This document shows, in pieces, positions 11,688 to 61,005 of a DNA stretch of 64,000 nt. Below the pieces are notes generated by a model, which was given only the letters and a program-made list of their open reading frames with translations, did not search any database and was not told the DNA's origin. Each line of letters opens with the position of its first letter. The first letter of the stretch is position 1. Made by a program: the position numbers and the translations under genes. The stretch is from Polytrichum commune (Eukaryota; Streptophyta; Polytrichopsida; Polytrichales; Polytrichaceae): positions 58,454,429 through 58,518,428 of the forward strand of contig OX485804.1 of the NCBI GenBank assembly GCA_950295325.1, read 5' to 3'.

Positions 11688-12009
11688 GTAGTTTCCATTA
11701 AAATGAGAGTATGTTAAGCTGGGAAATCAACTCATTTAGATCGACTCAACCTAAATTGACAACATATTGTCCTCATTTAGGTCGACTCAACCTAAATTGA
11801 CCAACATATTGTCCTCATTTAGGTCGACTCAACCTAAATTGACTAACATAATTGTCCTCATTTAGGTCGACTCAACCTAAATTGACAACATAATGTCCTC
11901 ATTTAGGCTGACTCAACCTAAATTGACAAAATATTGTCCTCATTTAGGTCGGCTCAACCTAAATGAGTCGATTTCCCAGTTTAACATATTCTCATTTAAT
12001 GGAAACTAC
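11688..12009. mobile_element. Fold-back MITE with internal minisatellite
   Basis: The ends are near-perfect inverted repeats of about 50 bp: GTAGTTTCCATTAAAATGAG on the left and the reverse complement of CTCATTTAATGGAAACTAC on the right, both continuing through a TATGTTAAnCTGGGAAATC segment. Between them six units of about 43 bp carry CTCATTTAGGTCGACTCAAC and CTAAATTGAC. Each unit holds a small inverted repeat (TTAGGT/ACCTAA), so the whole element can fold on itself. Confidence 0.8.
11732..11970. repeat. Minisatellite, six ~43-bp units
   Basis: Units start at about 11732, 11772, 11816, 11860, 11902 and 11941 and differ by a few bases and small indels. They form the whole core of the fold-back element. 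Confidence 0.8.
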
Positions 12010-19966: not shown

Positions 19967-21945
19967 ATGAGGAAAATGATCGGCTCCATCAACATTATGG
20001 TGGTCGCTTGCGTCATTATTGTCTTGCTGCAAGAAGTGTCGGTGGTGGTCGCGCAAACTTGCGGGAAGCAGGCGAACAATGCGGTGTGTGCCAACAATCT
20101 GTGTTGCAGCCAATACGGGTACTGCGGAAGCACGACTGCCTGGTGCGGGACTGGATGCCAGAGCGGACCGTGCACGAGCAGTAGTAATGCAAGCCCACCT
20201 CCCCCCCCAGCTGCGCCATCCAGCAGTGGTGGATTGAGCAGCATACTTTCAAGGTCCATGTTCGAGACGTTCTTCCCCAACCGCAACTCCTTCTACACGT
20301 ACGATGCCTTCACCGCCGCCGCGGCTGCATACTCAGCGTTCGGAACCACAGGAGATGCTGCTGCAAAGAAGCGAGAAGTCGCGGCTTTCTGCGCTCACGT
20401 GAAGCAAGAGACCACAGGTAATTAATACCCCCGGGTGCCAACTCTCCCTTGTCCAACAGTTGTTTCTAAGGCGCTTCTAATATTTGTAATGTAGTCATGG
20501 TTTGTTCGAGAAAAATGCTTGGAAAGAGGGCATTGAGAGGAATTCATTGATATGATTTGTGTATGAATTAGAAAAACCTTTGCACTTTGAAATGTTAGTG
20601 GTCACCATCCAAACACCCTAGATGAAGAATTTCACTTCTAAGAAATTCATAAGATTTCTTAGAATTTATAGTCTTCAATTTTATTATGATGTGAAAGTAG
20701 CTCCCAAATTATGCTTCTTAGCAATGGTTTAGCAACTCCAACCCAGTTCTAAACACGTGAGCCTTGCAAGTGTTACAGATAGGTACCACCTTGGCAGTAA
20801 TACAACCTTTTCTAAAGCTCATGTGATTTAGAACCCTAATTTATGCTCATAATTATGTATATACTGGTGCAAATCGATGGGCTTATACAAATGCAGAGCC
20901 CTCCAGAACGGAGTAGGATTTACAAACGTTGGAACCGCGAGGTCATCCAGGCCCTCTTGTTTTTTAGGTTCTTGCACGGAATTGGAGCAAGCAGGGTTTG
21001 CAAAGGCCAAATGGCACCATGGCCATTGCTAAGTTGTTATGTTTTGAAGCTTTTGCATGGAAAGGTTGGCCCCACATGTTTGGGTGTTTTATAATAGAAT
21101 TTTGAACATGTAGAAAGTGAGCAATATGGAGGTAGTGAACCTTTAAGTTAGAAGGTTCTACTTGGAGGCAACAACCCAAGGAAACGGTGGTAGAGAGGGA
21201 TGACCCGGTCCCCTCTACAACACTTCTTTCCCAATTGACGTCTCAATTTGCAAAGCAATTATTGTCAAAAAGCCTGTGCAAATTAAGTGATCAATCTTGC
21301 GTCTAACGATCGTTTTGTTCTTGTAGGCCTTGTTTACATTGAGGAGATTAGTGACAAGAGTGCTCATTGTCAGGCTTCAACAACATACCCATGTGCGTCA
21401 GGCAAATTGTACTATGGGCGAGGTCCACTGCAAATTTCCTGGTAGGCGTTTTTTCTGCAGCTCCCAACAAGATCATTCTTATTTAATCCTAAGTAGCACT
21501 TGTATCATGTTCATTTCATTTGTCTCCGAAAACATGTGGTATTAATCACGCCCAATGATTTCTACATTAACACAGGAACTACAACTACGGGGCTGCCAGT
21601 GCATCCGTGGGTAGCGACATCTTGAGCAACCCTGACCTGGTGGCCTCCGATGCCACAATCTCCTTCAAGACTGCACTTTGGTTCTGGACAACGGCATCTA
21701 ACCCTAAACCCTCCTGCCACGACGTTATGGTGGGTAATTGGAGCCCCAGCAGCAGCGACACAGCAGCCGGCCGCACTGCGGGCTTCGGTGTCACGATCGA
21801 CATCATCAATGGCGGCGTTGAGTGCGGCTCGGGAACTGCAAGTACCGGCGCGACCAACCGCGTGGCATATTACAAGGACTTTTGCTCTCAATTGGGCGTC
21901 GACCCTGGCCAAAACCTGGATTGCACAAACATGAAACACTTCTAG
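19967..21945 (+). CDS. Secreted GH19 chitinase with CBM18 hevein domain, three exons
   Basis: Exons are 19967-20417, 21327-21441 and 21576-21945; both introns are GT-AG (phases 1 and 2) and the spliced product is 311 residues. A signal peptide (residues 1-29) precedes an eight-cysteine chitin-binding domain ([13 protein letters not shown]..., residues 32-69), then a Ser/Pro linker, then the catalytic domain. E148 in HVKQETTG is the likely proton donor and E157 in LVYIEEIS the second catalytic Glu; this nine-residue spacing is that of class IV enzymes lacking the first loop. [16 protein letters not shown] and SFKTALWFW are family hallmarks. The C-terminal half keeps the [14 protein letters not shown] and IINGGVECG loop of class I/II, so it is a mosaic type. 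It should hydrolyse chitin outside the cell, in defence. The ATG follows a fitting TATA spacing. Confidence 0.92.
20418..21326 (+). other. Chitinase intron 1 (909 nt)
   Basis: Begins GTAATTAATA and ends TTGTTCTTGTAG, placed directly after the catalytic ETTG codons. It contains a short palindrome TTCTAAGAAAT..ATTTCTTAGAA at about 20636-20664 and no coding sequence. Confidence 0.85.
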
Positions 21946-22269: not shown

Positions 22270-23560
22270 CTCCCACACACAAAAATAAAAAAATAAAAAA
22301 ATCAGAACAAACAGACAGCCAGCTAGCCAGAAAGAATGAAAGGAAGAAAAGAAGCCAACATGAACAACTTTCTAAACTCTTCCAGTTCAATCAAATTGTC
22401 AAGTCAGGGTTACCCTATATCCACATATAGGGGAACACAGAGTAGATACATAGATCTAATTGGTCACGTGCAATCTGATTGAGTTACGATAAACGTGACT
22501 GCTCAACTGCAGCTTGAGGAATGAAATTCCAGAAGACTGGAATATTTATGCACCTGGCAAGCTCTGAGTTCATCATGTGTTTCATCCAGTAACTAACTTC
22601 TCCCTGCTCTGTTCTAGTTTCTTCTAGTTTTTTTCAGTTCAGATTCCGATAAACTTCCTGGGCATTAACATGGAATCTGCATAAGGATCCTGTTCTGACA
22701 CGTCACATACAGAAGAGATTCTTTTTGTAACCTCTGTATAATCATCCCAAAGTTTCGTAGCCCTTCTAGGTGTACAACAAATTCTTCCAGAGCCTTGTGG
22801 CTTGAGCTGCAAATTGTCAAGTTGGAACCCTGCCACACATATGCACATATGACAGAGTACACAGATCTCAAAATACACCTGCACTCTAATTGAATCTTAA
22901 CAAGACATTGCTCATGAGTTTTAGGATTTAGGGTTCATTCTGTTATCTCTCCCTATTCATTGATACGGAAACTGCATAACATCCAGCCCTGTTCTGTGTC
23001 ACATTCACACGGATGAGGGTTTTGGTAACTTATGAATAGTCTTCCAGTTTCCTACTCTTCTTCACACAACGTTTTCTATTGTACATGTGACTACTAATTC
23101 TCGCCTAGACAGAGCCCTATGGGTCGCTCCATGGACCATGTTCAAATTCCTGTCATCCCTGTATACTTTTCTTGAAGCTAGCCCCATGCTTCTCCAGGAT
23201 ACAGCAATCTGCTGACAATACTAAAGCGTAACTGAAGTATTAATGCTGCAAGTGATTAATAACCTAATTCCTCAATCCTGAAAATCAATTGAAGGTTCGT
23301 ACTTAATCGTTAGTTACTCTCGCCACTGCTGTTTGGATACTGCATATTTAAAGCCCCAACACATGTGCTGGAGTTGTAACATCATGGCAAACCCAATTTT
23401 CTCAATCTGGACGTTTCTAATCTTTCCAGCATGTTTGTAATAATGAGGATAGACGACCAAATCATCAAAATGCCTCAGATTTCTTAGAGCAAGGATGTCC
23501 TCAGTGCAATTACAAGAAGAAAAGTCATTCAGCTTAACCACAGTTTCCTACCTTCCAGTA
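22270..23560. other. Intergenic stretch with a weak internal duplication
   Basis: TGGAATCTGCATAAGGATCC...TTTTTGTAACCTCTG (22670-22740) is echoed by CGGAAACTGCATAACATCC...GTTTTGGTAACTTATG (22968-23032), suggesting an old ~300-bp duplication. No gene was recognised. Confidence 0.35.
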
Positions 23561-24169
23561 CTTCATCTAAATGAGTCAACGGCAACAGACGGTAGTATAC
23601 CTTCATTTCATATGGAAATAAGCAAAGGATGCACTCATGCATACAGATGCTATGATTGACTTGATGACCATGAAGTCAAAATCATGACTCTTTATTCTAT
23701 TTCTAAATTGCAGCAATATGAGTTACAAGGTCTGAATGGAGCTCCATCAGCCCAGATAATTGTACAATGTTACAAAGCGTGATGTTGTGGCTGCTTCGTG
23801 CCATGGTTGTGTGCACCCAGATAATCTAGTGAGTCTGGCCTTTGGCATTTGCGGGCGGATAGTGAATGCAAACTGCATAAGAAATGCCATAGCCACTCTT
23901 CAGATATTGTAGCAACCTGTGCTTAGTGTCTGCGACGATACCATTTATGTGTGTCATTTTATCCTCTACTTTGTGATCTCCTTCACAATCGCCAGCATCG
24001 CCTCCATCGCCACCATCACTCTCCACGTGATGACATAACCTTCGTCATTATTTTTCCCTTTGAATCCTGGGTCGGCAACATCTGTACAATAAATAAGCAA
24101 GGGTCATCGGCAAAATAAAGCTCCGACAATTTATAGTAAGTTCATAACAAAGCATGAAAGTGATATACT

Positions 24170-24665
24170 AAGAATATGAGATGTAAAAAAAGGTATAATA
24201 AGATATAATACAACATAACAAGATGTAATAATGAATTTTTTGTTAAACAATTTTTTGTGAAAAATCTGATTATATCTTATGCCTTATGTATAATAAACTT
24301 TCAACTTATATTTAGGTATATTTTCGATGTATATTTTTAAAATCTTAACTTTTTGGCTACTTCAATCTTATGGGCGGATTTGTTGATACACTTCTGATAT
24401 ACCTAAATGTTATGGGAGAACATGTGTGAATCCTTGGTGATTACTTGAATGTTATGCTATTAAAATATGATGGAAAATTAAAATAAATGTTGAAGAATGA
24501 AAATGCAATCAAAACAATAATTATAATATTATCATAATCAACTCTGCACATTCTCTTGAAGGATCTTACTATACAATCTTGTCATAGGATCCTATGATAG
24601 AATTCACATGTTATAATTATGGACTTGGACTTAGTCCAATTTTATTGAAATATTCTTTATTCTTT
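24170..24665 (+). repeat. Dispersed repeat R1, copy 1
   Basis: Shares GCTTCAATTCTATGGGCGGAT-type text, GTGATTACTTGAATGTTAT, ATTATCATAATCAACTCT and CATGTTATAATTATGGACTTGG with 32750-34105 (plus) and, inverted, with 60660-61005. It lies in the insertion that splits the PR-1-like pseudogene. Confidence 0.7.
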
Positions 24666-24677
24666 ATTCTTTTCCTA

Positions 24678-25909
24678 GGGCCAATTCACATGGGGTCCCA
24701 AGTTCCTAGTCCTACTCATGTCAACAAGTCCCGACATGGAGACAAAGTCCCAACTTTTGAGCCTCAAGAAATTATTGAAGTATGCTTTATCTCCATTGAA
24801 GTAGATGATAATTATTTTATACAAAAATATCTCAAGACTTGTGTTGCAAGTTGGGTCTAGCTTTTTGCTCAACCCAACTCTCAACAAAAATCCCAAGCCT
24901 AAACTCCAAAAACCGAGGCCGTGTAGCCGTCCATGTCACACTTGGAACTTAGGACTTGGGACCCATGTGAAGTGGTAAGTCCCAATTTCCATGCTCTTAA
25001 CCCCTAACTTCCCACACCCAATTTCCCTCAAATATGTCCAAAAAATGTGACCTCAATTTCAGCAACCGTAGCTAAAGATCTAAAGTTTTTTTTCTGACAA
25101 ATCCAACTCTATAGATGTTTGCAAATTAGAGATGACTACTTAGAGTCCAAATTCTAAATGTTCAAGTTCTATTATGTAGGAGACTATAATAGGAATGTCA
25201 ATAATGGTCTTGAAGGGTAGTAATTTAAAATTTTAATTAGGGTTGGATTTTTTTATCAAACCTCCACTCAAATCCTCTCCAAATGACAAGAAGTTACCCT
25301 CATTCAAAAGAGGGGAAATATACCTACTCAAATCAACTCAGAAATCTTGAATCCATTATTTTGTGATATTTTGGGAAGCTTTGCAATTGAGGCAACGGTG
25401 CCACAACTACACATCTTCCACATGGAATTACACCCACCAACACATGTCCACTTAAAAACTCCAAAAGTATATGTTTAGAATATGTTGCGTTTGAGTGTCA
25501 TGCAAATTTTTAGATCAATTGGGAATCGTTTGCACATAAGGATCAACAAAAAAAACATGTTTAGGATATGCCTCTAAATTGCGGAGGTGACAAATGTCAA
25601 GCAAACATTTGTGGACGAGTTCCACTATAAACCAGATGAGAGCACACTCCCATATTTGAATTAATCCAAAAAAAACTAACTATGTTGAATCAAAATTATC
25701 CACATGGCAGGACATGGTGAACTTGACCATGAACAAAAGGAGTAGTCGAAACAATCCAGAAACCATCCGAACTGGTGTCAAAGGAGTTAGAGCAAATTGC
25801 TCATGACCAGATTATGATCTCATTGGACATTAGGGGTTGATGGGTGAGATTGCACATGTTGACCTCAAGTGAACTGGGGTTTAAGACTTGGAACCCGTGT
25901 GAACTAGCC
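24678..25909. mobile_element. PIF/Harbinger-like element, long form (~1.23 kb)
   Basis: The left end GGGCCAATTCACATGGGG and the right end CCCGTGTGAACTAGCC are inverted and match the element at 31658-32019. Left 300 bp and right 70 bp align with that copy; the ~860 bp between (24995-25845) is extra. Part of it (25010-25150) recurs at 51361-51500, so it is probably a further insertion. Confidence 0.65.
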
Positions 25910-26619
25910 TTTATTATGATATGCACACAATGAATACGTAGGCCAACTGTCAAATAAGACACCATTGGATTCATCTTTTTGAGCTCTTTGCAACAAGACC
26001 AACTTCATTGAGAAAATAATATTTGTGAAAAAATAAATAAACACAATGAACAAAACTGAGTCGCTTGTCATAAAAAGCATGTTACCGTGGTAAATGGCTT
26101 TGAATGTACCACGGTGTCCATTGCCAGAACTAGCAAAGCCTTGAACCCAAGAGCTAGTAGCGTCCTTCGGCCCCTGCAGGTTGGAGACACACCAAGAATT
26201 CTGGCCAACTGAAATTTCTGGAGCAGGCGACCAAGCTTACACATTGTTGTTCTGCCACAGATTTTGCAATCTCAACAAGAGTGTTGACCGTAGTGATGTT
26301 CCACACGAGACTTTCAGCACCTGCGGCAGAGCGGACCTTGTTGTGGGCGTCCAAAAATTCTTGAGTGACAACGCTGAGTCGTACCTAATGAGCTCAAACA
26401 GATCCAAGCCACGTTGCCTCTACAACTCATACAACAACTGCCGAGTAGATCGCCCTCATCTCCCATGCCATGTTCATCGAGAATCGAGATCAATTAGAAT
26501 GCAGCTACAAGTCTGTACAAATCAGAGGTACCCAGCACCTAGCTAGCTGCACCACTGATGATCACTCGACCCATCTTTCGGTGATTCTCTGCTGTTGAGA
26601 CTGGAAATACATCATTGTA

Positions 26620-26688
26620 TAGTAGCAGGATGCTTCCAGAAAACAGGCATCATCTTCATGAGCTCAGTACCTTCTGATGTTCCATACA
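26620..26688 (-). promoter_or_regulatory. 69-bp block identical to 31157-31225
   Basis: Identical base for base to the block upstream of the intact PR-1-like gene although flanks differ by roughly one base in ten. Here it is upstream of the broken paralog. Confidence 0.6.
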
Positions 26689-27009
26689 ACTCTCGCTGTG
26701 TGGATGCAGCTTGCCAGCTCTATCCAGTGAGAGCTGACTGAACCAACAGAAGGAAGTAATAAAAATTTACAAAACCCATAATGTTATGGTACGTCATCAG
26801 TTGACACTTGTTAGGTCCACTAGATTTAGAAGAATTATTTCGAGTAGTACATTGATGTCATGACCTTCCTGTTTGGTCTATTCATGCACTGATGTACACG
26901 TGCGGATTCGCAACTTTTGAGGAAAAGTGATCCTCTCTTCAGTAAATCATTGTAATTGCATCTCACTCGTTGCAGATTCACAGAAATGTGGCAGCCTATA
27001 TCTAGGTCC

Positions 27010-27120
27010 AGAACCGCTGGCATAATATAGAGTTGTGGCTTGTACTCATGTTGGCACAGCCGCACAAGGCGTGCACAGCCAAGGAAAGCAACCCAAGCAG
27101 CGTAATCTTTGTCATGATGT
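27010..27120 (-). other. Conserved reading upstream of the PR-1-like pseudogene
   Basis: One minus-strand frame reads WVAFLGCARLVRLCQHEYKP and then IMPAVLDLDI; the same frame at 31640-31540 reads WIAFLGCSCLCRHEYKP and VMPAALDLDV. Another frame here has a start and a signal-peptide-like MTKITLLGLLSLAVHALCG that ends after 37 codons. It could be a gene fragment carried with the duplication; I do not recognise the protein. Confidence 0.35.
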
Positions 27121-30274: not shown

Positions 30275-31027
30275 CTAGGGATCCGTAGTATCGCCACTTG
30301 CATTCGCGGCCGGATAGTATTCGCAGACTACGTAGTATATGCCATTGTTGCATTGGAGGTTGTAGCAACCTGTACTTAGTGTCTGCGACCACACCATCTG
30401 TGTGTATTCGCGAGAGCCATAATGTTCAATATGGTGTCTCTCACCATCACCACCATCACCACCGTCGCCTCCGTCGCCTCCGTCGCCGCCGTCACCACCA
30501 TGGCCTCCATCACCCCCGTCACCTCCCTCGCCGCCCTCCCCTCCGTCACCTCCGTCACCGCCATCCCCGCCGTCGCCGCCGTCACTATCCTCTTCCTCCT
30601 CCTCGTCATGGTCGCCTTCGCCATCCTTATTCTCTTTGAATTTGCCATGACCACCATTGCCGGAACTGGCAAAGCCAGCCCGGGCCCAATAGATAGTAGC
30701 GTTCCGAGGACTCTGAGGGCCGACGGCGCACCAGGAGTTTTGGCCGTAGTCTTCGTCATCCGAATTTATGCTCATGGTCCCCTGATCACCGGAACATACG
30801 CCCAAGCTTGCGCATTGTTGCTCCGCGACAGATTTCGCAATCTCGACGAGACTGTCATTCCACACGAGACTCTCAACACCCGCGGCAGCGCGGACCGCGT
30901 TGTGGGCGTCCAAAAACTCTTGAGCGTCGACACTGAGCTGCACCTGAGCTCCAACAGATCCAGGCCACAGGCCCAGTATGGCGCATACAACAAGTGCCAT
31001 GTAAATCGCCTTCAACTTCCACGCCAT
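30275..31027 (-). CDS. Secreted PR-1-like CAP protein with a Gly-Gly-Asp tract
   Basis: A single open exon of 250 residues. Residues 1-27 are a signal peptide (cleavage after SVGA). The CAP domain begins EFLDAHNAVRAAAGVESLVW (37-56), continues through VEIAKSVAEQQC and YGQNSWCAVGP (94-104), and ends with EYTQMVWSQTLSTGCYN (207-223) and YYVVCEYYPAANASG (231-245). Between them, where PR-1 proteins have a short loop, residues 124-200 hold an acidic run (DGEGDHDEEEEED) and about fifteen GGD/GGE/GGH units. Of the four conserved CAP metal-site residues, H42 is kept, the Glu of GENL is Gln, and the His of HYTQ is Glu. CAP proteins act in the apoplast in defence and bind sterols. The tract may be an extracellular acidic, Ca-binding or flexible loop; this is inference. 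Its broken paralog lies at 23.6-27.1 kb. Confidence 0.85.
   Translation of the reverse strand: MAWKLKAIYMALVVCAILGLWPGSVGAQVQLSVDAQEFLDAHNAVRAAAGVESLVWNDSLVEIAKSVAEQQCASLGVCSGDQGTMSINSDDEDYGQNSWCAVGPQSPRNATIYWARAGFASSGNGGHGKFKENKDGEGDHDEEEEEDSDGGDGGDGGDGGDGGEGGEGGDGGDGGHGGDGGDGGDGGDGGDGGDGERHHIEHYGSREYTQMVWSQTLSTGCYNLQCNNGIYYVVCEYYPAANASGDTTDP
30440..30590 (-). repeat. In-frame GGN-GGN-GAY coding repeat
   Basis: A nine-base coding repeat that encodes GGD, GGE and GGH units inside the PR-1-like gene. The pseudogene copy has only a few units, so the tract expanded or contracted after duplication. It leaves other frames open on both strands by composition. Confidence 0.8.
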
Positions 31028-31156
31028 GACGATGAATTATAAAACGGTACTGGAGTAACCAGAGTTACCCAGCACCTACCTAGCTGCACCACTGATGATC
31101 ACTCGACTCGTCTTTCGGTGATTTTCTGCTTTTGAGACTTGAAAAACATCATTATG

Positions 31157-31225
31157 TAGTAGCAGGATGCTTCCAGAAAACAGGCATCATCTTCATGAGC
31201 TCAGTACCTTCTGATGTTCCATACA
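31157..31225 (-). promoter_or_regulatory. 69-bp block upstream of the PR-1-like gene, identical in the paralog
   Basis: It lies 130-200 bases upstream of the ATG at 31027, in the likely leader or promoter. On the gene's strand one frame reads YGTSEGTELMKMMPVFWKHP and closes soon after, so it might be an upstream ORF; it might also be a protein-binding region. Confidence 0.5.
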
Positions 31226-31657
31226 GCTCTTGCCGTGCGGTGCAGCTTCCCATCTCTATCCAGTGAGACTGGATAAAAGCAATGGAAGCAAGAAATTCAA
31301 AATTGCAACACCAATACTGTGATGCTAGATCATCAGTTGACACTGTTAGTTAGGTCTACTGCATCCAAAAAAATTCTTCCAGGTAGTACATTGATGTCGT
31401 GGCCTTCCTGTTTGATTGGGCTATTGCTGCGCTGTCGATCTGCAAAGGACAATTTTTCACTTTTCGGAGAAAGTGATGTGCTCTTTTGTAAATCATGAGA
31501 AGTGCATCTCACTTTGTTGCAGATCCACAGAAATGTCACGGCTTACATCTAGGTCCAGAGCTGCCGGCATGACATGGAGCCGTGGCTTATACTCATGTCG
31601 GCAAAGGCATGAGCAGCCAAGGAAAGCGATCCAAGGCCACCTGAGAGGGAAATGTTA

Positions 31658-32019
31658 GGGCCGGTTCACATGGGGTCCCGAGTCCCCACATGGAGACAAA
31701 GTCCCAACTTTTGAGCCTCAAGACACCATTAAAATGTGGTCAATTATCATCAAAGGTGGATCTTGATTATATTATGCAACAATATTCACCGGACTTGTGT
31801 TGAGAGTTGGGTCTAGCTTTATGCACAGCCCAACTCTCAACACAAGTGCGGAGCCTCACCTCCAAAAGCCAAAACGTGTTGTCATGTAGGCATCCATGTC
31901 ATACTTGGGACTTAAGACTTGGAACCCGTGTGTAGTGGTAAGTCCCAGCTTCCATGCTTTCAACGGTTGAGATTGCATGGATTGACCTCAACTGACTTGG
32001 GACCCATGTGAATCGACCC
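31658..32019. mobile_element. PIF/Harbinger-like MITE (362 bp), TSD TTA
   Basis: Ends GGGCCGGTTCACATGGGG and CCCATGTGAATCGACCC are inverted and flanked by TTA at 31655-31657 and 32020-32022. An internal inverted pair ACTTGTGTTGAGAGTTGGG / CCCAACTCTCAACACAAGT surrounds TCTAGCTTTATGCAC. Relatives lie at 24678 and 50215. Confidence 0.88.
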
Positions 32020-32745: not shown

Positions 32746-32749
32746 ATAA

Positions 32750-34105
32750 CTCATATTTAAGTAAAGATGGACATGTTCTCAAAAACTAGACTTTAATTTG
32801 TGGTTGCTTCAATTCTATGGGCGGATCCAACAATACATTTCCTTATATTAAATACAAAGGAGATGTGTGAAATTTCCTTAGTGATTACTTGAATGTTATT
32901 ATAATTAAATATGATTTAAACCCAAATAAATATTATTCTATGTTCAATATACATTATTAAATGCTAAGAAATAAATAAAAAATCACTTGCATATTATCAT
33001 AATCAACTCTACATATTCTATTGTAGGATGTTTCCACACAATCCTTGTCGCAACCCTTGCTAGTGCCCCTTAACTAATTTGGTCATTTTTCAATCCAAGC
33101 AAGGGTCACCAATGCTAACCCTTTGCATTCCACCATGTTAATGGTTAGCTCACATACCACGGACCTCTTAGTTCATAGGAGAGGGACCAACCCTCCTACA
33201 CTTGCATTCGGGGCTCATCACTTGATCGGTAGCCAATGGTAAGATGTGGACTTCCATCCATGGAAGTCCAATCTTTAGTTAATCATCGTGTTGTCGGAGC
33301 AACACTACAACAACCCGAACCATACTAAGCAACTATGCCCCCATGTTGGGCCAATGCCCGTAGAGGCCGTGCCATTCGACCTCGGGTGGGTTTGGCGGCC
33401 ACGCCACCTCCCTCATATAAGCCTCTAGGACTCTAGACAGGGCCCCTACCCCACCATCAAGAAACCTTTTGTCTTTCTACCAAGAGTTGGGGCCGAGTAG
33501 ACATTTTCCCTTAGCCGTTGGGACTGGAAGCCCCCACCACCTCCAGAACACCATAACTTCTTTGTATGATTTCTGATGCTAATATCCAACCAGTCCATTG
33601 TCATCTACATTTCACGTAGATGCCGATGGACTCCTCTCATTCTCCATTCCGCCAAGTATTAAGAAAGTTATGCCCGTTCAAACCTTGGCAGTCTCGGGAG
33701 CCACTCCCAGGCCACTGCTGTACCAGGGCGTTGTCCCCCCACTCAAATTGCCATATCTCCTAGCTCACACCTCCAATTGAGGTGTTCTTTAGCAATCTAG
33801 GATCTACACACCATAAGCTACGCATAGCTAATGGCCTTTCCCTCGTGACTCCTAGTCTCCATGGGTGGGAGGCGTTCCCAACGCCCGGGGCCCTCACCCA
33901 CAGTAGGACCACTTGGACCCTCTCACCAACGGCGCTACAGGTGCCGGGTGTCACTCCGGAGTCCCCCTTGTGCCCATGGTGTTTCAGGCACTCCTCATGG
34001 AGAGGTGCGTGACAATCCTATTGGAGTATCTTACAATAGAATTTCAACATGTTATAATTTTGGATTTGGATTTAGTCTAATTTTACATAAATATCAATTA
34101 CGTTT
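32750..34105 (+). repeat. Dispersed repeat R1, copy 2, split by a solo LTR
   Basis: Matches 24170-24665 up to about 33045 and again from 34015 (ACAATAGAATTTCAACATG, TTGGATTTGGATTTAGTC). The break coincides exactly with the solo LTR and its target duplication. Confidence 0.75.
33046..34014. mobile_element. Solo LTR of an LTR retrotransposon (969 bp)
   Basis: The element starts TGTCGCAACCC, ends GCGTGACA, and is flanked by the five-base duplication ATCCT (33041-33045 and 34015-34019). It is richer in G+C than its surroundings. No coding domains are present, so copia or gypsy origin cannot be told. It is a fossil left by recombination between the two LTRs; the exact duplication suggests moderate age. 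Confidence 0.85.
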
Positions 34106-35560: not shown

Positions 35561-38500
35561 TTATAGCCAATGACACCACATGGCTGGTTGATCTTTGGAC
35601 ACAAGTAAGACTCGAGAACCCATTAAGTCGAATTGGGGGCTCTGCAGATCTTCAACAACCAGCACGTCACGAGGATTTATAGGTTCTTGACTAATGGAGT
35701 GCCTGTTAGCTGCATCAAACAGAAACAAACCATTCTCAGTGGCTGCCAAGAAGTTATCGGAGGAGCCCCACACCTGGGCAATGGAAAGGTCCAAACAAGA
35801 GGTGGAGCTGGACTCCCCAAGATTGTAGACATTCATGGCCTTCCCTTGTCGTATTGACCATTGGTTCACTTTACACTGAGCATGTATGACTTTTGTGGTG
35901 CCATCAAACTGCAGTTTGGTTTTGTAACTGGTCGTGCCGGTATACACAGTATCCCCATTGGCAAAAATTGAGTGAGTCTCCTCCCCCAAGAAAGGGAACC
36001 TCATCCCAATGCCTGAAGGCACTCGGAAGTCAAGTACATTGACTGCCTCACTGGTGCAAAGTGTTCCATCACTGTGATGGTCAGACAAGCTTAACCTGCA
36101 CACGAAGGCCAATGTTTTTTTCAGAGTTGGGATTCTTACAGAACCTTTCCAAATTCATCAGCACAGTGTCCAGATAGTGCAGGCATATCAGATGAGAACT
36201 ACCTATGCATGGATCCGAAGCACTGTCGATCTTCAATCAATATAAAATTAAGATTGAAACTTTCTAAGAGACTTATGCTGTGAACATGTCTAATGACCAA
36301 ATGACAGCCTCCAAAAAATATCCCAAGTTGCCAACTAACAACTTGATTTATAAATACTTAAGCTTTGGTTTTAGTTGGTCTGCAAGCAACGAAAAAAATT
36401 TGATCCACACGCATTTTACAATCATGCAGCACATACCGTTGGCGCACACCACCACTGCATTCCGCATCATCATTTTGCACATGCAACGCTCGCAATTTCT
36501 TTCCAACCAAATTAATATTATGCAGACGTCGGGCTTCAAGACTATTAACATCCCAGACACTGAGGCTTTCATTTTCTGCCAGTACAACCTTGCCTGCACA
36601 ACTCCAGAGACCCACCTTTCAGTTACAGGTCCAAATGCTGTTAATTAGAAGGAAACAAAGAGGCCAAAGCAGAGCACATGCAAAAGCAGGCAGAGTAGAC
36701 ATTCATTCACAAAGTCCAAGAACAGAATTGACTAGGCACAAATAAATCTTAGCACATTTAAAACTTTGCAAGGATTTAAAGTATTCAGGAACTTGCAAGT
36801 AATTCATAACATCATCGTTAGAAACATTGACGAAAATTATACTGATCTTTCTTGTGCCTAAGAGGTTTGAGTTAATTTGCAGTGAGGGTCAACAATGGAC
36901 ACAACTGCCTGAGATAATAAAGGTTTTAAGTAGGATAGACTGTTCAAGAATTACAACGCATGCACCTAGAATTAAGAAGTCGGGATATGGTAACTCACCT
37001 CTAGTGCGCCATTGTAAAGGGCTACTGTATTTCATGGCTGCTATGGATTTCTTTGTATCCCACTGCATCACAAGATCACCATCACGAATATCATACAAAG
37101 ACACAGTTCTGAGTCCACTGGCAGCTGAGGCTATGAGGGCTCCACACGGTCTGTACCACCAGAGAGGGAGGTCCGCCACTTTGCTCTCAGCCTTTGCAAT
37201 GGCACTGCGAGTCACAATTGAGTTGTTTAGGGATGATGATCTCTTTAATGTCTTTGTGGTCGCAGCTGTTGCACCAGATCGGAGACTGAAAGAGCTAGAC
37301 CTGTCAAGCCACTTCTTGAAACCCAAGTTGGACCCTGGGCAACGTTGGTCCTTGGGTGAAGAAACTCGTGGTTGTTCACTGACACTAGAACGTGCAGTTG
37401 GAGCTTCAGGGGATACAAGCAATGAGGGCGGCTGACAATGGTAGGCAGCAATGCTCTGCTCATAATAATCCCAAGAACAGAATGCAGCATTTCTTGCCCA
37501 GCCAGCTGATGCAGCAACAATGTATTTGCTGGCACAACCATCCATTCCCGTGACTCCTATCATCCAGCAGTCTCCCCACACACTAGAGGCCACGCTAGCA
37601 GGCGCCTTGTACTCAATTTTCTCCTGCATTAGGATTATTGGATTCATTGCTGTCAGATACAAGAAAAAGCGGTAACTTACTGTAAGATGTCTTCAAGAAC
37701 CAAAACACTTCCTACTGTGGCCCATACAGCATAAGAAATAACATTGGTCAAACAAAATGAAACGAAATGAAATGAAATCAGTGTCAGGTCAGGGCCAATC
37801 AGGAAATGGAAAGTACCTCCATGTTGGCCACATCGTAGAAAGAGCAACAACCGTCATCATGCGCAAGCAGTATACCATCACCCTCAGACACAAACCATCC
37901 CGCTGTTGTGGTCTTTTTCCCAAGCTGCAAGGGCCTCACGGTAGAAGTATGACCAAAAACCTTCTCTCTCCCATTTTCACCTCGGGGACTCATGGAGATA
38001 CACAGGACTCTGTCATTCTCATTGTCTAAGAAGTCTTCATTGCTACACCCTAGCTCATAAGGGTCAGAAATCAACACTCGTTTGTCTTGCTTTATGTGGA
38101 CCGGTTGCTTAACATCATCTTTTGAAGGGTGCCTCGAGATGTGACTTCCATCTGACACCCTGAGGTGGTCAATCTCTGCAAAGTCCGCCTTGACACTACT
38201 GTTGAAACAGTGAACCTTGGTGTCTTCCTGAACGTCAAAATATAAAGGGGACTCATGTTCGCTGGATGGGGAGTCACTTGTTGCATCAGAATACCTGTGA
38301 TTCCTCAATGGATGTAAGCTCCCCTTCAATAAGCTTTGCTCAGTGAGTCCTTGCACCATGCTCACACCAGTTCCAGACATTACCAGCCTTTCAGCCCCTG
38401 ATTTTTGCATTACACAACATCAAGCTCTTTAGTGGAGAAACTTCATAGCCACAGATTGAGGCTAGCATTGTCAAACGAAATAGCTATTGTCACTCAGGTC

Positions 38501-49787: not shown

Positions 49788-50214
49788 GAATTGATACGGC
49801 ATCCTCATTGGTTGTGTCACCAAGATGTAAGGAACCCAATAGAGAGAGACAATGCCAGTCGCAGGGGTTGGCATGAATGAGGGATGTTTCACCATGACCA
49901 TAGCCATGAGCTCGTATATGAACCCGAAAGCGGTTTACGGAGCATGACACTGGGACAAGTGTTGATGCCTCATGTCAGAGGTGGTCCATGTTAAGTATCC
50001 TTGCACCTTGTTGCCCATGGACATGTGAGCCTAGCCGTACGGCTAATTAACACTAAATAAGAAAAAGATGATGCATCGAGGGAACCATGGACATTGAGAA
50101 TTCATCTCAAACAAGGGGAGGTAAGGGGGTCTTCAAGCCCAGGTTGCTCCCTTCTATTTTGTGCTTAACTCTATCGTGTGAAAAAGAATTGAGTCTTTAG
50201 GGATTAACGAGTTA

Positions 50215-50508
50215 GGGTTGGTTCACATGGGGTCCCAAGTCCCAAATCCTAAGTCCCACTTATGTCAACAAGTCCCGACATGGAGGCAAAGTCCCAACTT
50301 TTTAAGCCTCAAGAGCCCATTAAAGTATGGTCTTTATGAGATCTTGTTGATTTTACACACAAAAATAACATTTTGGGACTTGTGTTGCGAGTTGAAGTCT
50401 AGCTTTTTGCTCGCTCCAACTCCCAACGCAAGTCCCGAGCCTCACCTTTAAAAAATGTTGTCGTGTAGGAATCCATGTCATACTTGGGACCCCCATGTAA
50501 ACCGACCT
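50215..50508. mobile_element. PIF/Harbinger-like MITE (~294 bp), same family as 31658
   Basis: The left end GGGTTGGTTCACATGGGG is preceded by TTA. The right end CCCCATGTAAACCGACC is followed by TTG. It shares CAAGTCCCGACATGGAG and TCTAGCTTTTTGCTC with the copy at 24678. Confidence 0.75.
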
Positions 50509-53301: not shown

Positions 53302-56280
53302 CTCCGGTCTCCGGAGGAGGCCGGAGTGAATAAAGTGTATGTTCGTAGAACATCCTAGGCCATGCCTCACGGCAATGGCGTTAGATGTAAAACTACTTCG
53401 CCCTTTGCAAGACGTAGACACTATATTTAGTAACCAATTGTAAATTTCAGTAGCCGGTTATTATGTATGGGCCTTGTTTGGGGTAGTTAGTTGGGGGGGG
53501 ATCTATACTGGGTTGGGAGTTTTATTTATTTATGAGAGGTCTTGGAGATCATTAATAGTTTGTCGATTTTCTAGCCTTCGTTTGTGGACTAATATGGAAT
53601 GTACATATTGTGTGGCAATTATGTTAATTTGTTTAAACGTGTTTTTGATTTTTGTTATAGGGAGTGTGAACGTTGTTTCCAGTTTTTTCATTGATGGGAT
53701 ATGTGTTGTGCCTCTTGCTCCCGCAACTAGTACCATGAGTGGGGCTACGTTCCAACCCTTAGTTATGATGTTGTTTATGAGTGGTTGGTATTTTATGATT
53801 TTTTTGTCTAGGGTTTCAGTGGCGAATCTACCATTGCAATTTGTGAATTCGATGAATTGTATGATGATATCAGGTGTAGGGGTTTTTTTTTTTTTTGGGG
53901 GGGGGGTGGTTATATGGATGGCCTATGATGCATAGTATGTCTGGTTTGAGCCTAGCGTTGCAATGACATCTTTGGGTATCACATGTACATGAAAGTAACC
54001 ATGGGGGAACTGTATTTTCTTGGGGTAGTTCATTATGCGTTCCTACATTCATTAATGTATAATGTCTTGATATTCGAGTTGATACAATGAGTTTGCGTAT
54101 TTCCCATATCGCTTTGTTATGTCTTTTTGTTATTAGTGCATGGATGTGTTGTTGTTTGCATTTAAGTAGTACATGTAGCCATGTATCCACATCTGTTGAG
54201 TTGCAGATAGGACATGTTCACGATGGGAAGGCTTCTCTGCCAAAGAAGAGTTGTTTTCGGGCGTGACCCATATATTGTCCAGTTCAAAATTTTATTAGGC
54301 ATGTTTTTTGCTTATCTGTGATGTCGGGATTCGTCCAAAAGCCATTTGATAGTATTTTATCTATGTCGTCATTTTCTAGCCATTTGTGTAGTTGGTGCGT
54401 TTGATTTGCTATAATTGTTAAGTTATGTTCATTGTCATGCTTGAGAATGTGTTTACTAAGGTGCCTAATGGGGCCCTTGTCAAGTGTTTCTTGCATGGAA
54501 TGCCACCAGTTTTTTGTAGGTAATATGGTGTAGGGTGTGCATGCTCGTATGGAACTGCGGCATCTCTATGGTCTAGTTCACGTCCTTGTTTGGCTAGTGT
54601 ATATGCTTGGTCATTTCCCCCTATGTTTGTGTGGGCCTTTATTTTGTGGAGTGTGGTGGTTTGTGTGCGGGATATTAAGATTTTAATCATGTTTTCTAGG
54701 ATTATTTTGTCCGGGTGATTGTTATGACTAGTGGGGTGTTTGATTTGGGTGTTTAGGAGGTATAGGATGTTTAGACAATCTGTAAATATGTGGGCTGGCT
54801 CATTTCAGTATGTTGTGGTGAGGAGTTGTAGAGTGTGGTGTATGGCCATCATTTCTGCTCGTAGAATATTTTGTAGTCCCGGTATTTTTTTTGCGATTTT
54901 TAGGTTCTTGAAAGGGTTGTAAATACCATATCCAACTTTTTCACGTCTCCATTGTCCATTGTTTGTTTGTTTGGGTGGTTTGAATGACCCGTCCGTGTAG
55001 TAGCAAAATTGGGGTGGGTATTTAAGCGGTAGACATTGTTCTGGGTTGATATTCCATGGGTTGGTTGGGGTTTGGATGGTCGGCAGGGGGGGGGGGGTTG
55101 GGTATGTGAGTTTGGTCCATTTTGTAGTTTAGTTCACTAAGGTGTCTAGTGGCGTTAGTGGTGCAATTTGGCAAAACATTTCGGGAATTCGTAGTGTATT
55201 GGCAGTATCTTTCATTTGCTGGGTATAGGTCTCTATTCCTATGGGTGTATTCTTATGGTGTATGCATACTATTTGTACAGTGCGATTTTCTGTTATAGGT
55301 TTAGTTCTTAGTTCTGGGGGAATTGTTGGTTCTTCGTAGATGATGGCATCGGCTTTGAAGTGGGTTATAACATGTGAATTTAGGAAGGGTCCATTGTGAG
55401 GATTAGGATTGTGATACCAATTTTCATCTGGCATTACTAGTATTGTGATAGAGGTTGAGTCGTTTTTGGCTGCGAGGCGGGCCCAATGGAGGGTTTGTTG
55501 AGTTTCAGTGTTTGTGTGTGGGTGCGCATAGTCATTTCCATGCCATTTATGATGGAATGTTTTTCCAATTGATCCAAATACTACATCTCTAGGGAATGGG
55601 GAGTGAAATTGTATGAGTGTGGTGGAGCATGTTACTGGTGATGAGAAATTTGAGTGTGTTATTTGGAATGTGTTTATGAAGTTCTCAAGGATGGCATTTG
55701 GGAGTGTGTATTGCGAAAGTTTAAGGGGATCATTTTTGGGAGTTTTGTATTTATATCTTTGATATAACCATGCCACTTCAGTTTCAAATGGTTGGGTGGG
55801 GGGCTCTAGGTTGTGTGGTCTATTTAGTGCTAAGTAGTATTGGTCCCATAACCATTTTAGTCTTGTTTCAGGAATGATAATCAAATGTCGACTAGTGTTA
55901 TTGTAGATGTATGCATTGTCATATTGGGTTTGGATAGTGTATTGTAAGCATGCGATATCATCTTCTAGGTTGCATTCGTTACGTGTATTTGGCATAGGGG
56001 TATGGTTTGTGGTGGGGGAATATATTTGGTATCTCTCATTTGTTCTTGGTTGAAGTTTATGTTTAGTATGTTAGTAAAGTGTTGGTGTTGTTTTCGAGTG
56101 TAGTATTGTGTTAGTAGTAAAATGTTATGGTTTATGGCGTTTTGGTTGTTCCAGGGAAACAACTATTTTTTGGGAAGCCATTTGTTGTAAGTTGTTTCAT
56201 GTGAGAGTGTCCATTGGCATAGGTAGGATGTGTATTCGCTATACAACATGCTATGTCCATAATTCTCCACAAAAGAAGGA
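53281..56280 (-). mobile_element. 5'-truncated LINE with PCIF1-like domain and RNase H
   Basis: On the minus strand, from its 5' side: a ~290-residue block (55995-55129, with a further piece to 56162) with SPVTCSTTLIQFHSPFPRDV, VFGSIGKTF, YAHPH and ITILVMPDENWY; then RNase H (about 55010-54570) with YYTDGSF, RAEMMAI, FTDCLN and HKIKAHTNIGGNDQAYTLAK; then a C-terminal CPICN...TWLHVLLKCKQQHIH zinc-knuckle-like region (~54220-54130); and a tail ending RLENRQ near 53540. The 3' end is a (TTC)n tract at 53301-53281. Pieces lie in at least four different frame segments, so it is dead. Reverse transcriptase and endonuclease are missing, as expected for 5' truncation near 56280. The RNase H call is firm; the first block's kinship to PCIF1 is inference. 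Confidence 0.72.
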
Positions 56281-60659: not shown

Positions 60660-61005
60660 TTTTATTCAATAAAGTAACAAATATTTAAGTAGAATCGAAC
60701 CAAGTCCAAGTCCAAGATTACAACATGCAAGTTGATTATGATTACGTTGCAGTAACTGCTTTCAATATATTCTCATTACTTACCATTTAATTAGATAGAT
60801 TTGACATCAAGAAGTTTAGATTTGATAAATCTATGCATATTTTGATATCACGACATTCAAGTAACCAATAAGGATTTATATATCTCCCAAGATATCTAGG
60901 TGTATTGGAAGGGTATTGACATATTGACTTTAGATTTGAAGCAACCAAAAAATCCACATTTTGAAACTATGTTCATATTAACTCAAATATGAGTCAAGTC
61001 CCTAA
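60660..61005 (-). repeat. Dispersed repeat R1, copy 3 (inverted)
   Basis: ACCAAGTCCAAGTCCAAGAT, TTGATTATGATTACGTTGC, CATTCAAGTAACCAATAAGG and TTTGAAGCAACCAAAAAATC are reverse complements of R1 words at 24.2-24.6 and 32.8-33.0 kb. Confidence 0.65.

Follow-up and report, generated by a model that had tools for sequence, protein, structure and literature searches.

The reading frame at 30275–31027 of a 64-kb window of Polytrichum commune DNA (the window being the whole stretch analysed here) raises the question of how a CAP domain comes to carry 15 Gly-Gly-Asp-type units within its fold: whether this tract belongs to the protein, whether the domain around it still folds, and what, if anything, such a loop may do.

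An intact CAP frame with an acidic GGX loop

The frame encodes 250 amino acids on the minus strand and runs from an ATG (31027) to a stop, with no internal stops. Its product is a CAP protein whose nearest counterpart among solved structures is plant PR-1, and several of its features depart from PR-1. The Pfam CAP profile PF00188 covers residues 39–237 (E 9.7e-10; 39.8 bits against a cutoff of 21.1), and phmmer against solved structures returned 13 sequences at E up to 0.01 with plant PR-1 in first place (9lyt, E 1.2e-11; 1cfe, E 3.4e-9). Membership of the CAP superfamily is judged here by profile and fold, not by the cation tetrad, and the signal-like start and its cleavage site were judged by inspection. 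The parts of the gene are as follows.

30275–31027, minus strand: CAP (PR-1-like) protein, intact frame of 250 aa (open frame and Pfam PF00188)
30947–31027, minus strand: signal-peptide-like N-terminus, about residues 1–27 (charged start, hydrophobic core, SVGA-Q; from sequence)
30668–30913, minus strand: N-terminal part of the CAP domain, residues 39–120 (Pfam, pairwise alignment, model)
30410–30667, minus strand: replaced loop, about residues 121–206, with a Gly/Lys/Asp lead-in, acidic run, GGX tract and His-rich exit (pLDDT and residue count)
30446–30580, minus strand: GGX tract, residues 150–194, 15 units of which 12 are GGD, 2 GGE and 1 GGH (direct reading, Tandem Repeats Finder, codon test)
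30278–30409, minus strand: C-terminal part of the CAP domain, residues 207–250, with EYTQMVW, GCYNLQCNNG and VVCEYYPAAN (phmmer to 9lyt and 1cfe; pLDDT)

The preliminary description had placed a GGD/GGE/GGH repeat inside the CAP domain in one unbroken frame, between a helix ending in TIYWARAGF and a strand beginning EYTQMVW. That account holds: both flanks are present on this minus-strand gene, the 15 units lie in a frame without a stop, and the Pfam CAP match surrounds them. The tract is directly preceded by DGEGDHDEEEEEDSD, its lead-in contains the run DHDEEEEEDSD, and Tandem Repeats Finder recovers the array at 30447–30585 (period 9, 15.4 copies). Within residues 118–203, 38 of the 86 residues are Gly and 28 are Asp or Glu, giving a net charge of –24, and X is acidic in 14 of the 15 GGX units. 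By direct count the loop spans 92 residues from Trp114 to Glu207 (the E before YTQMVW), against 19–28 for the equivalent stretch (Trp to the His before YTQ) in 55 other CAP domains, in keeping with the earlier statement that a short loop is normal in PR-1, with only two of the 55 being plant PR-1 proteins (P14a and 9lyt) and the remaining 53 prokaryotic or viral domains from 51 loci. The direct count is used because an automatic column count gave 61, MAFFT having misplaced letters into the tract. The 51 loci (48 in genome contigs, 3 in viral contigs, none in plants) were retrieved with a query alignment of this protein and three known CAP proteins, and served both as yardstick and as the source of the model alignment.

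The codons of the tract are constrained as those of a protein. Across the 15 units, 24 of the 45 third positions differ from the modal letter, but only 1 of the 90 first and second positions does, in the GGH unit. The Fisher p of ~3e-13 is nominal and not a true probability, because the units descend from one another; yet both position classes share that history. An accidental DNA repeat lying in an open frame should vary roughly equally at all codon positions, and the tract is unlike that. Where the tract has a GAN codon, it also encodes Asp more often than Glu (12 versus 2, nominal p 0.006). Besides the GGD frame, a second frame on this strand and all three on the opposite strand are open over the tract, which is 70% GC; these extra frames are a by-product of composition, and the CAP flanks occur only in the GGD frame. 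The DNA pattern suggests that selection kept the tract as protein, and we regard the loop architecture and the coding nature of the tract with high confidence.

The preliminary description had named transcripts with the tract spliced out as a refutation of its reading. A simple sequence scan (donors with at least 6 matches at nt 300–480 and acceptors at nt 540–650 of the frame) found no good sites. Two in-frame GT...AG pairs exist and would remove part of the tract only; the donor of both pairs agrees with 6 of 9 consensus positions, and the acceptors are preceded by 27–33% pyrimidine. With the high GC content and coding-type codon pattern of the tract also speaking against it, splicing-out appears very improbable.

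Predicted fold and departures from PR-1

An AlphaFold2 model was built with an alignment of 52 prokaryotic and viral CAP domains (L041, one of the 53 yardstick domains, was left out), giving a mean pLDDT of 69.5 and a pTM of 0.60. Block means of pLDDT are 92–96 for residues 31–70, 69–90 for residues 71–120, 32–51 for residues 121–210 and 92–93 for residues 211–240. The N-terminal part of the domain is modelled with helices at 33–48, 58–75 and 107–120 and a strand at 95–102, and residues 2–17 of the signal-like start as a helix. Foldseek with this model retrieved 27 solved chains at E up to 0.001, the best being the plant PR-1 9lyt (TM 0.78 on target length, E 3e-8, 20% identity). A single-sequence model made without an alignment was unusable (mean pLDDT 36.1). 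Insofar as the alignment pulls the prediction towards CAP, the model supports rather than proves the alpha-beta-alpha CAP fold; the Pfam and phmmer matches are independent of that alignment. Modelling, which had been proposed as a check, thus predicts a PR-1-like core and a long acidic Gly/Asp loop of low confidence within it, and the loop is probably disordered, low pLDDT being the usual sign of disorder, not proof of it.

The core itself departs from its relatives at the cation tetrad, which a passage of PMC10189770 describes as highly conserved in CAP proteins. In place of His/Glu/Glu/His the protein has N88, Q96, A117 and E207. Q96 is anchored by YGQN (YGEN elsewhere), E207 by REYTQ (RHYTQ elsewhere) and A117 by Trp114 and YWARA; the assignment of N88 is less certain, lying in a gapped stretch of the alignment. 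GE[NS] and H[YF]TQ are present in all 53 yardstick domains, the conservation of the latter being partly built in, since loci were selected with the pattern [HE][YF]TQ. In the MAFFT alignment, tract residues E142 and H176 fall in the columns of the relatives' tetrad Glu and His, which we take for a gap artefact, with a small chance that the loop supplies the two residues.

Six cysteines follow the signal-like start (72, 78, 100, 221, 226 and 235). The last three align with those of P14a and 9lyt, 72, 78 and 100 are not clearly in register, and the two PR-1 loop cysteines before HYTQ have no counterpart here; six cysteines in the P14a/9lyt positions are the defining mark of plant PR-1. At the C-terminus, CEYY is followed by PAANASGDTTDP, and the full stretch, CEYYPAANASGDTTDP, stands in place of the CNYx cleavage motif and CAPE peptide described for PR-1 in parts of PMC10189770 and PMC10403534. 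Of the "extracellular defence protein" named in the preliminary description, the CAP/PR-1-like part therefore stands, and "defence" goes beyond the evidence, because the tetrad, the loop cysteines and the C-terminus are all unlike PR-1.

Against tomato P14a (1cfe) and Mucuna PR-1 (9lyt), to which pairwise identity is 28% and 31%, the protein shares the CAP domain, the HN..R of helix 1, YTQ(V/M)VW and the last three cysteines. It differs in the distance from Trp to the residue before YTQ (21 and 20 residues there, 92 here), in the tetrad (H/E/E/H versus N/Q/A/E), in the missing pair of cysteines and in the C-terminus (CNYxP.GN...PY versus CEYYPAAN...DP). The yeast sterol-binding CAP protein Pry1 offers a further comparison: it has the CAP domain (29% identity), and the change described here sits in the loop that holds its caveolin-binding pattern, YDFSNPGF. 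Passages of PMC10189770 give this flexible loop, and the aromatic residues in it, a part in sterol binding, and state that plants have mostly not preserved the caveolin-binding motif. The pattern OXOXXXXO (O = F, W or Y) has no match anywhere in the present protein; since P14a also lacks it in that loop, its absence does not separate the protein from plant PR-1, whereas loop length and composition do.

Resemblance to RTX repeats had been suggested from composition. RTX repeats and the tract are both Gly/Asp-rich, and GGxGxD occurs 11 times in that register, but the full nonapeptide GGxGxDxUx (U = L, I, V, M, F, Y or W) has no match: the tract has no hydrophobic position, its unit is 3 and not 9, and the protein starts like a eukaryotic secretory one. 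At E up to 1, Pfam found besides CAP only a below-cutoff Sharpin_PH match in the whole protein and no RTX family, and EF-hand-like spacing has no match in it. The tract alone gave four matches among solved structures (E 0.4–1), two of them to collagen-like peptides. Given its low model confidence as well, a structured, RTX-like repeat that binds calcium is as improbable as splicing-out, and both remain weak readings.

A broken tandem copy and the rest of the window

A tandem relative of the CAP gene, interrupted by in-frame stops, was found by DNA comparison within the window and by tblastn on the same strand at ~23.5–27.1 kb.

26098–27097, minus strand: 5′ flank and 5′ part of the broken copy, with stops in frame (72% DNA identity to 30634–31635; tblastn)
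24066–26097, no strand assigned: 2032-bp insert in the broken copy, GC 34%, flanked by the 8-bp direct repeat ATTCAAAG (26098–26105 and 24058–24065)
23519–24065, minus strand: 3′ part and 3′ flank of the broken copy (DNA comparison, tblastn)
23988–24014, minus strand: GGX tract remnant GGD GGD AGD in the broken copy (direct reading and a tblastn piece)
31157–31225, minus strand: 69-bp block 5′ of the intact gene, identical to 26620–26688 5′ of the broken copy

Segments 23666–24024 (64%) and 23519–23661 (69%) match the 3′ part and flank of the intact gene, and the 3′ part of the broken copy reads SDGGDGGDAGDCEGDH. Because the GGD motif occurs at the loop position in both copies, it would predate the duplication, barring later conversion between them. 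The intact gene has 15 units and the broken copy ~3; units may have been gained in one copy or lost from the other. When the tract region is set aside, differences between the copies fall on 30 of 147 first, 32 of 148 second and 49 of 147 third codon positions (p 0.019), the excess at third positions that protein constraint on at least one branch would produce. For the gene as a whole the support for constraint is only modest: with 111 of 442 sites different, the coding DNA is no more alike than the 5′ flank (47 of 273), although it is more alike than the 3′ flank (187 of 404), which aligns poorly.

These comparisons bear on the possibility that the intact gene is itself in early decay, with the changed tetrad, the missing loop cysteines and the repeat expansion as its signs, as in the neighbouring copy, which is broken by stops and an insert. 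The replaced tetrad residues and the lack of any excess similarity of coding DNA over the 5′ flank are consistent with such a course. A 250-aa frame without a stop and with a signal-like start, six cysteines of which the last three are in register, and a codon-position signal both inside and outside the tract argue against it, and we consider decay improbable, if less so than splicing or an RTX fold.

The intact gene has the octamer ATTCAAAG at the place matching the ends of the insert. Parts of the insert recur in the window at 31681–31964, 50213–50490, 32748–33049 and 60668–60994, and these shared repeats give it the look of a mobile or composite element. Target duplications of 8 bp are typical of hAT elements; no clear inverted repeat was seen by eye in the first and last 40 bases of the insert. 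The two 100-column blocks holding the identical 69-bp block are 88 and 91% alike, the other five lettered blocks 68–78%, and the identity may mark either a constrained promoter or leader element or gene conversion.

Elsewhere in the window, a frame at 19967–20425, ~10 kb from the CAP gene, encodes a chitin-binding domain of the hevein type and the beginning of a GH19 chitinase domain; nothing here shows joint action of the two genes. Frames at 35561–36112 and 36889–37662 contain parts of an At4g14310 propeller domain, a 720-aa frame at 1–2163 contains DUF7869 (E 3.8e-40) and is perhaps, at a guess, part of a mobile element, and a 288-aa frame at 55129–55995 has a PCIF1_WW domain (38.1 bits against a cutoff of 31.1). 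We read the chitinase, propeller and DUF7869 frames as marks of a plant genome. A 41-bp tandem array lies at 11731–11964 (5.6 copies, 92% matches). Scanning the window for tRNAs and, at the gathering threshold, for Rfam families returned nothing.

The preliminary description had let its reading turn in part on whether any homolog carries the insertion. The broken copy has the short motif, and an intact homolog with the insertion was not found: tblastn with the whole protein gave no match among 72,556 plasmid and 50,697 phage records, and searches of viral contigs with the last 50 aa and of genome contigs with the whole protein recovered no relatives. The main text of a paper on brown-algal PR-1 (PMC12879055) makes no mention of an insertion, glycine or a loop, and no comparable loop in a CAP protein appeared in the literature searched, among the titles and abstract openings of the matches listed. 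The novelty of a GGD loop in a CAP protein is therefore provisional.

Possible roles of the loop

The reading that we tentatively favour is that of a CAP scaffold which, in the cell wall, displays a loop that is disordered, acidic and rich in glycine and acts by multivalent contacts. The product would be a PR-1-type plant CAP protein that is secreted, and we infer that it resides in the cell wall or apoplast. The flexible loop before YTQ(M/V)VW would have grown into an acidic, glycine-rich, disordered segment of ~90 residues, and the CAP core, with its changed cation tetrad, would still fold as a stable scaffold. The loop would then be the working part, most likely through weak, multivalent interactions in the wall: mainly with Ca2+, which could bridge it to pectin and other acidic wall polymers, or else with basic partners. 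For plain Gly/Asp chains, weak binding of Ca2+ is to be expected. A proposal cited in PMC10189770 has the CAP sandwich serve as a stable scaffold presenting this same loop.

The same tract may instead be a tolerated low-complexity expansion of a surface loop, translated and in frame with no specific task, in a protein that works, if at all, through the rest of its CAP core. The variation in unit number between the copies fits such loose constraint and counts against a selected loop, passages of PMC10189770 have CAP domains varying mostly in loop length and orientation, and the loop is modelled at low confidence beside a core that is modelled without it. However, the retention of 89 of 90 first and second positions despite turnover at third positions is more than frame-keeping needs, and the core on which function would then depend has itself a changed tetrad. 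We judge a tolerated expansion somewhat unlikely, less probable than the displayed loop and more so than decay.

Among the closest known systems are the class I plant glycine-rich proteins, which part of PMC5852109 defines by a signal peptide with a (GGX)n region after it. A signal-like start and a (GGX)n tract occur here too, with the tract enclosed by a CAP domain and an acidic X in nearly every unit, and any membership of the class would be tentative. A bolder and more doubtful extension would posit a plant CAP lineage without a cation cavity, in which the fold has become the holder for a selected acidic (GGD)n chain, uniting the PR-1 and class I glycine-rich ideas within one domain and working through multivalent Ca2+ or pectin contacts in the wall. 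A CAP protein in which nature has replaced the display loop, retained it in protein form and altered the cation site would make it easier to tell what the CAP fold does as a scaffold from what it does in binding cations and lipids.
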